Source of the DNA: a virus
Virus record (IMG/VR): IMGVR_UViG_3300042891_000945
Span: 1 to 43,628 of that record
Reading direction: 5' to 3' (one strand)
Length of the DNA: 43,628 bases
Shown here: piece after piece, positions 317 through 2,788 of the stretch
Layout of the letters: every line of letters begins with the position of its first letter
Numbering within the stretch: position 1 is the first letter of the stretch
Notes under the pieces: model-generated
What the model saw: the letters and a program-made list of their open reading frames with translations, nothing else
Databases searched by the model: none
What the model was told of the DNA's origin: nothing
Made by a program: the position numbers and the translations under genes

Positions 317-691
317 TTAACAATAATTTGAATATGATTTTTCCTCAACAAATAAGGAACCATATTTTAAATTGATTTCTTTTTTAATTTCGGCTCTTTT
401 ATCATTTGTGGTGTATACCGACCTAGCAAGTTCAATAAATTCAGTATCAAATACCTTATCTTGTTCTTTATCACGGATATCATCTTCAATTTTCCAAAGA
501 ACTTGATTAACTAATAATAAATTATTAAAATCATCTGATTCAATTTTTAATTGATTAAATACGACATCATATAGATAATCGTATTCTGAAATAATATTAA
601 ATAGTTTGGACTCGTCGGCAATATTGTTTTTTTTAATGTTTAGAATTGATAATTTATCAACTATTTCTCCAATTGAAACTTCTATTTTCAT
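317..691 (-). CDS. DUF6165 family protein
   Basis: This 124-residue protein matches the pattern I know for DUF6165: an N-terminal EVSIGEIVDKLSIL, a central LWKIEDDIRDKE, an ELARSVYTTNDKRAEIK segment and a C-terminal VEEKSY. The biochemical role of the family is not known; it is usually seen near glycosyltransferase genes. The protein is predicted soluble and largely helical. It is the last gene of the minus-strand glycan run: its ATG at 691 overlaps the stop of the upstream heptosyltransferase-like gene by one base (TAATG), implying translational coupling. Family assignment is confident; any role in glycan transfer or enzyme assembly is inference from context only. Confidence 0.8.
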   Translation of the reverse strand: MKIEVSIGEIVDKLSILNIKKNNIADESKLFNIISEYDYLYDVVFNQLKIESDDFNNLLLVNQVLWKIEDDIRDKEQDKVFDTEFIELARSVYTTNDKRAEIKKEINLKYGSLFVEEKSYSNYC

Positions 692-1575
692 TACAATAAA
701 TGTTGAATTTGGTTAATTACCATATCTACGGTAATTGATTTATGACATTCAAACTGTCTTTCAGTATCTTTATGTTTTGGACACCAATACCAATCATTTT
801 TATCAAAAGAATGTTCAATGTTAATTTTATTCCAACAACCATGACAAACAGATTTATTTGTGATTCTAATATAATCATCTAAAGATAAATCAAATTCATT
901 CCAATCCTCAGTAAAATTTGAAATCATTACAACTTTCTTACCTAAAGCGTGGGCGATCCAAGACATTCCTGATGAAAGACCAATATAAAATTCTGAATGA
1001 TTAATAATGTTTGCAGCTTCTAAAAGAGTTTTTCCAATCTGTTTATTAGATTTAGAGGGAACACCATTATAGAATGGTGGAGTACCATACATTTCATATT
1101 TTTCCACAGTGACTGGCGTATAACCACGTTTTCTTAATATTGCAGATAATTCATTCCAATTTGTTGAATCACCTTGAGATTTTAAACCATTTGGATGATT
1201 CCAATATTTTATTTGACAAGTTGAATGGACACCAAGAGCAACATATTTGTTCTTGATTGGTCTTAATAGTTTGGGTATTGAAACTACAGGACGAATATAT
1301 GGTGGATTTTCAAACCCTAATTGTTCAGCATATCCACCTTGAATACTTTTATTAAAAACGTAATCTATGGATATTTTTTCATCGTATTCCACAACATCAT
1401 TTCTACCAACAAATTGGATATTCTCATAACATTCTTTTAATAAAAAAATATAAGGATCATTAATATTAAATATAACATTAATATTATGTTTCTTTTGATA
1501 CTCAGAAACATATGGTGTACTTGCAATAGTATCACCTATTGAGTTTGATAATAAATGTATACAAACTGTTCTCAT
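691..1575 (-). CDS. TibC/Aah-like O-heptosyltransferase, shorter paralogue
   Basis: A GT9-fold glycosyltransferase of the bacterial autotransporter heptosyltransferase (TibC/Aah) type, which moves ADP-heptose-type sugars onto Ser or Thr of exposed proteins. Visible features are an N-terminal SNSIGDTIASTPYV sugar-nucleotide transferase motif, an acceptor-side GLSSGMSWIAHALGK motif, and four cysteines at about 244, 247, 265 and 277 (CHGC, then WCPKH, then FEC), the arrangement of the family's iron-finger. At 294 residues it lacks the extra N-terminal domain of its 403-residue neighbour and starts directly at the Rossmann fold. The last eleven residues (DMVINQIQHLL) are identical to the neighbour's, so the pair looks like a tandem duplication. 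The natural acceptor is not shown by the sequence. Confidence 0.8.
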   Translation of the reverse strand: MRTVCIHLLSNSIGDTIASTPYVSEYQKKHNINVIFNINDPYIFLLKECYENIQFVGRNDVVEYDEKISIDYVFNKSIQGGYAEQLGFENPPYIRPVVSIPKLLRPIKNKYVALGVHSTCQIKYWNHPNGLKSQGDSTNWNELSAILRKRGYTPVTVEKYEMYGTPPFYNGVPSKSNKQIGKTLLEAANIINHSEFYIGLSSGMSWIAHALGKKVVMISNFTEDWNEFDLSLDDYIRITNKSVCHGCWNKINIEHSFDKNDWYWCPKHKDTERQFECHKSITVDMVINQIQHLL

Positions 1576-1576
1576 A

Positions 1577-2788
1577 TTATAGTAAGTGTTGAATTTGATT
1601 AATTACCATATCGGAATTTATTTCTTTTGTACATTCAAACATACGATCCGTATTTTTATGTAGTGGGCACCAATTCCAATCGCCAGCATCAAACCTATCT
1701 GAGTTAAAACATCCGTGACAAACACTTTCGTTAATTACCCTATATGTGTCTAATGTTGTTTCCGACCATTTTTCACTAAATCCTGAAATCAAAACGACAG
1801 GTAATTTACAAGCCCAAGCTAACCAAGATAAACCAGATCCTAAACCAATAAAGAACTCACAACTTGATAGGTCATCAATTACTTCTTGTAGGTTACCTCC
1901 TTTAAAAATGGTTACTCCTTTGGGATAATAGTTATTCATATACCCATCACCTTCTTTAGAATAGACCATACACTCGTATCCCAAATTATTAAGATGGTCT
2001 ATAACCGATTGCCAAGCATCGGGGTTATTCCAATATTTTGCCTGAGCGGTTGAGTGGAACCCAATACCCACTTTTTTATTTTTAGGTATGTTACCTAATT
2101 TTAATAGTGGTCTAACTTCTTCATAATCTAAACCTAAGATATCTGTTGCGGTTTTTTGTAATGGAATTTTTTTAAAATCAAATGGATGTTTGTTATTATC
2201 GTAAACACCTTCACTTGTATAAAACCAACCTAATCTGTATAACGATTTTATATTAAGTACAACCGCATCACGAGTAACAAATTCAATTTTGGGATATTGG
2301 TCTTTAAACATTGAATTCATAAAACTTGAGACAATAACATGACAGTTGTGTTTTTTTCTAAACTCTTCACAATACGGCATCCAAGCGAGTGTATCACCTA
2401 ATGAACTTGATTCAAAAACAATAAAAACTCTACTATTTTCTAAATCAAATTCATGTTCAAATGTTAAATCATCAACAAATAATTTTGTTTTCCATTTTGT
2501 ATAGTAGGTCCTATTTAATTTAGAGTACATACCTGAACTTAATTCAGTGTTATAAACTAAATTTTCCTTATCATCATAAACTTCAACCTTAAATGGGGTT
2601 GTAATGTTTGATTGTAATTCAAAAAAATATCCATCAACACTGTGTGAATTAACATTAAAGGTTAATGGTATTTTTTCATCAGTAACATACTTATCACCAA
2701 AAGACTCAATATATAATTTTTTATATTCATCACTTGTTGGTGATGACATATTATAATCTTTATTGTTAATTTGTATCTTATTAAACAT
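1577..2788 (-). CDS. TibC/Aah-like autotransporter-type O-heptosyltransferase, full length
   Basis: This 403-residue protein has the usual length and layout of the TibC/Aah family: an N-terminal mostly beta domain (about 1-125), a first Rossmann domain starting at FESSSLGDTLAWMPY, and a C-terminal domain with FIGLGSGLSWLAWA. It ends in a four-cysteine finger (Cys357, Cys360, Cys374, Cys386). Characterised relatives glycosylate serines of autotransporter adhesins, using an iron held by four cysteines. No autotransporter is present here, so a phage surface protein or a host protein is the likely acceptor (inference). One base separates its stop from the shorter paralogue, and its start overlaps the end of the upstream gene, so translation is probably coupled. 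Confidence 0.85.
   Translation of the reverse strand: MFNKIQINNKDYNMSSPTSDEYKKLYIESFGDKYVTDEKIPLTFNVNSHSVDGYFFELQSNITTPFKVEVYDDKENLVYNTELSSGMYSKLNRTYYTKWKTKLFVDDLTFEHEFDLENSRVFIVFESSSLGDTLAWMPYCEEFRKKHNCHVIVSSFMNSMFKDQYPKIEFVTRDAVVLNIKSLYRLGWFYTSEGVYDNNKHPFDFKKIPLQKTATDILGLDYEEVRPLLKLGNIPKNKKVGIGFHSTAQAKYWNNPDAWQSVIDHLNNLGYECMVYSKEGDGYMNNYYPKGVTIFKGGNLQEVIDDLSSCEFFIGLGSGLSWLAWACKLPVVLISGFSEKWSETTLDTYRVINESVCHGCFNSDRFDAGDWNWCPLHKNTDRMFECTKEINSDMVINQIQHLL

Follow-up and report, generated by a model that had tools for sequence, protein, structure and literature searches.

What the glycosyltransferase clusters of phages act on is an open question, to which the usual answer is the host O-antigen. 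The question is posed sharply by a 43,628-base virus record, IMGVR_UViG_3300042891_000945, a fragment that is referred to here, in its whole length, as the window. It encodes a tail sheath and a DNA polymerase of phage type, the distant relatives of which belong to Salinibacter and cyanobacterial phages, and it carries two adjacent minus-strand genes for proteins resembling TibC and Aah, the bacterial autotransporter heptosyltransferases (BAHTs). If these enzymes do not serve an autotransporter, what is their acceptor, and what sugar would they transfer?

The TibC-fold pair and its place in the family

Both proteins score above the curated NCBIfam cut-off of 200 bits for TIGR04414 (TibC/Aah). 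The long copy (403 residues, 1577..2788, minus strand) reaches 282.1 bits, and the short copy (294 residues, 691..1575, same strand), which starts 1 nt after the long copy, reaches 207.3 bits over profile positions 83-373; a six-frame search returned 282 and 200.7 bits, respectively. The best PDB match by sequence was TibC (4RAP) in each case (E = 1.8e-62 for the long copy and 1.6e-35 for the short), and no other molecule was matched by either copy at E ≤ 1. The long copy is laid out as a putative N-terminal barrel, strands of which are present in the predicted model, an N-lobe with the catalytic Asp132, a C-lobe with Thr247, Lys251 and Trp322, and a four-cysteine finger. The short copy lacks the barrel region, and similar barrel-less copies were found in L009, L010, and G099. 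Membership of both copies in the TIGR04414/TibC family is therefore secure, in agreement with the initial annotation, which had described tandem TibC/Aah-like genes in a phage. A grouping with lipopolysaccharide (LPS) transferases, which that annotation had named as contrary to its reading, was not seen: the long-copy model (pLDDT 90.5) superimposes on TibC with TM-scores of 0.77-0.81, as compared to at most 0.59 for WaaC/WaaF and generic GT9 structures.

The four-cysteine finger that had been noted in both genes is present, with every cysteine at a TibC position. In TibC, the iron ligands Cys339/342/358/370 are spaced CxxC-x15-C-x11-C (PMC4358343). The aligned residues are C357, C360, C374, and C386 in the long copy (1631..1720, minus strand; CxxC-x13-C-x11-C) and C244, C247, C265, and C277 in the short copy (745..846, minus strand; CxxC-x17-C-x11-C). 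All four cysteines are kept in 68 of 71 aligned family rows, and in the remaining three (L024, L055, and L075) all four are gone together. Since a metal site predicts loss as a unit, this all-or-none pattern, together with the conservation, supports the finger as a putative metal site. The catalytic Asp is invariant (71/71 rows), as is the donor Trp, and Lys occupies its donor position in 70/71 rows, with Arg in its place in the L009 short copy. Equivalents of TibC Asp110, Thr226, Lys230, and Trp305 are present in both window copies.

Family membership does not extend to the autotransporter branch. In a tree of 78 rows, drawn from a midpoint root, the BAHT clade that includes TibC comprises 18 rows with 100/100 support and no viral rows. 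The family-tree check that had been proposed for the locus gave a divided answer: the GT9-like proteins do form a separate group, but none of the phage proteins is placed in the well-supported clade of TibC and the other BAHTs. The window short copy clusters with the corresponding copies from L009 and L010, and the long copy with L003, L006, and L007. The SLS autotransporter repeat (TIGR04415) follows the same division, being found in 14/16 BAHT-clade genomes and in 0/19 other family-bearing genomes (p = 5e-8). It was also absent from all 37 related viral records, and none was found at E ≤ 0.01 among the scanned proteins of the window fragment. The missing autotransporter is thus a trait shared by all of the family beyond the BAHTs and not peculiar to this phage. 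An acceptor other than an SLS autotransporter is supported, in line with the earlier expectation that the acceptor must be something else. A TIGR04414 annotation is not to be equated with autotransporter heptosylation in proteins that lie beyond the BAHT clade.

Matches in genome contigs were obtained with an alignment query, a single-sequence query having returned none. Four loci filed as Rickettsiaceae, Bacteroidetes, Flavobacteriales, and Winogradskyella genomes (L062, L063, L072, and L074) are probably phage contigs binned into those genomes; in L074 a tail sheath gene follows the TibC-family gene, and the other three have phage-like neighbors. Some chromosomal non-BAHT genes lie near secreted Ser/Gly-rich proteins that are possible acceptors (L064 4914-5777, L077 3899-4489, and L081 7183-7809).

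A third enzyme, a GT9-like glycosyltransferase (11340..12347, minus strand; PF01075, 38.2 bits), is a distant TibC relative. Its reading frame starts at 12347, with an in-frame Met at 12296 equally possible. It scores 32.3 bits against the LPS heptosyltransferase equivalog TIGR02193, below the cut-off of 185.3. A related finger had been suspected in this protein, and its CxxxC-x22-C-x8-C motif (C284, C288, C311, and C320; 11388..11498, minus strand) is invariant in 9 homologues and was paired one-to-one with the TibC finger by hhalign (98.3% probability), so that a finger related to that of TibC is likely from the alignments. The predicted model (pLDDT 72, with the finger mostly below 50) gives TM-scores of 0.57-0.62 to TibC and ∼0.5 to WaaC, and the enzyme appears intermediate between the TibC group and the LPS heptosyltransferases.

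A putative sugar operon and the probable donor

Thirteen consecutive minus-strand genes run from 12347 to 317 with intergenic gaps of only −17 to +30 bases, and they therefore look like one operon. The GT9-like gene is followed by genes for a GT2 glycosyltransferase (10166-11320), an FkbM methyltransferase (9392-10162), an acetyltransferase with the hexapeptide repeats of a left-handed β-helix (8928-9404), a Gfo/Idh dehydrogenase (7915-8928), a GT4 glycosyltransferase (6233-7918), and a double methyltransferase (4995-6215). A GNAT acetyltransferase (4539-4964), a short DegT aminotransferase (3914-4555; PF01041, 85 bits), and a 382-residue protein without a family match (2781..3929) then lead into the long and short TibC-fold copies and a final DUF6165 protein (317..691). 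Among the loci, relatives of the 382-residue protein occur only in the TibC records L052 and L053, and DUF6165 genes also lie near TibC genes in L022, L024, and L052. The dehydrogenase resembles UDP-GlcNAc 3-dehydrogenase (NF040723, 117.9 bits, below the cut-off of 450), and together with the β-helix acetyltransferase it is predicted to act in amino-sugar synthesis.

Whether the pair uses ADP-heptose can be approached through Arg286 of TibC, which contacts the adenine and the mutation of which abolishes or largely reduces activity (PMC4358343). This residue is kept in 18/18 BAHT-clade rows, in 8/17 other cellular rows, and in 4/36 viral rows. It is replaced by Val and Ala in the two window copies, which makes ADP-heptose an unsafe assumption. 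As the phage proteins also lie outside the BAHT clade, O-heptosylation by analogy with the family is not supported. Roughly one in two chromosomal members beyond the BAHTs also has no Arg286, however, and a new donor does not necessarily follow from its loss. Genes for ADP-heptose synthesis were considered as support for heptosylation and set aside, since a search with HldE gave only domain II matches, in 5/33 records and all below cut-off. From the loss of Arg286 and the amino-sugar enzymes of the operon, we propose a UDP-amino-sugar; the pair probably uses a nucleotide sugar that enzymes of the operon synthesize or alter, and not ADP-heptose.

The long copy also appears to be a mosaic. Its identity to L009 is 68% in the barrel, 79% in the N-lobe, and 50% in the C-lobe, as compared to 31%, 65%, and 76% for L003, with the nearest relative switching from L009 in the N-terminal half to L003 in the C-terminal half near residues 200-230. 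The donor residues sit in the C-lobe, and we read the mosaic as the product of recombination in the linker between the lobes, which could change donor use. In L052 (10440-10900), and similarly in L053, the N-lobe and C-lobe occupy separate ORFs. An intron was considered for the sequence that separates them in L052 and was rejected, as this sequence has no Rfam match and is a DUF6165-like ORF.

Ser/Thr-rich virion proteins as candidate acceptors

The plus-strand block next to the operon opens with a protein that combines Thr-Pro-rich stretches with DUF285/PARCEL repeats (12683..15433), a candidate acceptor. It adjoins a PF11397 (GT60-type) glycosyltransferase (15490..16737, plus strand; 246 bits). 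Further candidates on the plus strand are a Thr-rich protein (21919-22479), a second Thr-Pro-rich DUF285 protein (22583-24511), and the tail sheath (34119..37463; phrog_23, 192 bits), a 1114-residue protein with a Thr-Pro-rich insert. DUF285/PARCEL repeats are familiar from surface proteins of Mycoplasma and Listeria; here they occur in two phage proteins (12683-15433 and 22583-24511), and a GlcNAc-type PF11397 protein (15490-16737) is likewise encoded by a phage. A search for DUF285 as a shared acceptor matched nothing anywhere, controls included, and is therefore uninformative.

No collagen-like array was found in the window fragment, which has Thr-Pro-rich proteins only. The same kind of protein is found at some other loci, and at many viral loci Ser/Thr-dense collagen-like arrays lie near the TibC genes. 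These Gly-Ser/Thr-Ser arrays are without proline. Ser/Thr arrays are also present in Microcystis phage Mel-JY01 (PP395634), which encodes an FkbM-TibC fusion. Of 40 records tested, of which 37 carry TIGR04414 and 3 the GT9-like relative, 29 contained DNA matching a pattern of four Gly-(S/T)-(S/T) units and 0 contained its backwards version. A control set sought with a backwards pattern yielded 4 stretches only and was too small for use. Phage kinship inflates all p-values for the array association, as related phages are not independent. With that limit, records picked solely for GSSGTSGSSG carried TIGR04414 over cut-off in 20/50 cases, versus 0/50 for records picked for Gly-Pro arrays (Fisher p = 2e-7), the latter set excluding one record, L227/G079, which has both kinds of array and a TIGR04414 gene. 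An AT-codon-matched Gly-Pro control gave 8/120 versus 0/115 loci (p = 0.007), or 8/120 versus 1/118 (p = 0.036) when the left-out loci, including the TibC locus L164, were restored. Within a single sheath clade, whole records contained arrays in 5/12 TibC-positive and 1/27 TibC-negative cases (p = 0.007, or p = 0.019 after removal of a near-duplicate); restricted to loci, the same comparison was weak (3/14 versus 3/32). In 13 large records, array and enzyme lay less than 10 kb apart in 11 (combined p = 8e-5), and circularity of the record, if real, would bring them close together in G019, one of the two exceptions. Many array phages are without TIGR04414, and several TibC phages are without arrays. 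Because tail-fibre modules gather glycosyltransferases anyway, the linkage is no proof of an enzyme-acceptor pair.

A second association is with the tail sheath. In 33/57 loci, all flavophage-like, the TibC domain lies upstream of a same-strand sheath gene, mostly by 317-346 bases, and usually forms the C-terminal portion of a fusion with GT4. The spacer codes for a protein of 83-88 residues in 4/4 cases read. Among cultured phages, Flavobacterium phage immuto has the sheath most closely related to that one (51%), and no glycosyltransferase is among its genes just upstream of the sheath. As all of these loci belong to one phage group, the sheath linkage counts as one event retained over time. 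GT4-TibC fusions ahead of the sheath gene were observed in the Immutovirus-like contigs L025-L051 and L054-L059.

Proposed role, alternatives and known systems

The best-supported role of the TibC-fold pair, which we hold with moderate confidence, is that of virion-fibre O-glycosyltransferases acting on Ser/Thr-rich repeats. The pair would be cytoplasmic protein O-glycosyltransferases, and within TIGR04414 they belong to a region that is rich in phage sequences and separate from the autotransporter heptosyltransferases. They would act during infection and before assembly, adding sugars to Ser/Thr of repetitive, extended virion proteins, which may be the Thr-Pro-rich tail-module proteins in the window phage and, in most relatives, collagen-like fibres of the (Gly-Ser/Thr-Ser)n type. 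The four-cysteine finger would hold a metal and aid acceptor binding and dimer formation, as in TibC. The operon dehydrogenase, aminotransferase, and acetyltransferases may supply the donor, and the GT4, GT2, GT9, and methyltransferase proteins may extend or cap the glycan. That the acceptor is a protein, which protein it is, the donor, the metal, and the timing are all what we infer. As a tentative generalization, tailed phages may have a dedicated enzyme-acceptor system: TibC-fold transferases would attach O-glycans to virion fibres that are either Ser/Thr-dense and collagen-like or Thr-Pro-rich, and swaps of the C-lobe between genes would change the donor specificity.

A different function for the operon would be to remodel host LPS or capsule so that other phages are excluded, the TibC-fold enzymes being merely recruited and the fibre module simply the variable module. 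This is how glycosyltransferases in pelagimyophage fibre regions have been read (PMC7029224), and the GT2, GT4, GT9, and sugar-modifying enzymes of the operon would suit it. We consider it fairly unlikely, as both fold and finger match a protein O-glycosyltransferase and are distant from WaaC/WaaF, the enzyme associates with Ser/Thr arrays and not with Gly-Pro fibre arrays, and no O-antigen polymerase or flippase is among the window genes examined. True protein O-heptosyltransferases, moving host ADP-heptose onto a virion protein, would fit the conserved Asp110, Thr226, Lys230, and Trp305 equivalents, the ADP-heptose made by Gram-negative hosts, and the Arg286 retained in the L009 and L010 long copies, but the Val/Ala replacement in the window, the HldE search without a match over cut-off, and the amino-sugar enzymes of the operon render this unlikely. 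An acceptor of host origin, either secreted or on the cell surface, in place of a phage protein is more improbable still: bacterial TibC-family enzymes do modify host proteins (PMC4358343), but the fusion adjoins the sheath gene in flavophage-like contigs, and the enzyme is overrepresented in array records.

Glycosylation of virion fibres, if true, would hint at how proline-free Gly-Ser/Thr-Ser fibres are stabilized or shielded, proline being what stabilizes collagen. With a named enzyme family and a recognizable repeat, it can be tested directly in culturable phages. A literature search of partial coverage found nothing joining phage, heptosyltransferase, autotransporter, virion, and glycosylated.

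Among known systems, the BAHTs TibC/Aah (PDB 4RAP and 4RB4) share with the window pair the fold, the TIGR04414 score, the catalytic Asp, the donor Thr/Lys/Trp, and the four-cysteine finger, and with the long copy alone probably the N-terminal barrel. Unlike the BAHTs, the window proteins lie outside the clade, have Arg286 replaced, are without an SLS autotransporter, and stand in tandem with a barrel-less copy, and their relatives are often fused to GT4 or FkbM domains. The LPS heptosyltransferases WaaC/WaaF/WaaQ (GT9) share the GT-B fold and a PF01075 match, but they are a far poorer structural match to the long copy and are without a four-cysteine finger at the TibC position. Sugars on collagen-like surface-layer or virus proteins are known from BclA of Bacillus and the viral collagen of mimivirus (PMC8968730); no TibC-fold enzyme is described there, and the phage arrays differ in being Ser/Thr-dense and proline-free. 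In the T4-like fibre modules of pelagimyophages, glycosyltransferases cluster with tail fibre genes and are read as O-chain modifiers (PMC7029224), whereas here the fold is one that acts on proteins and a particular repeat is the candidate partner.
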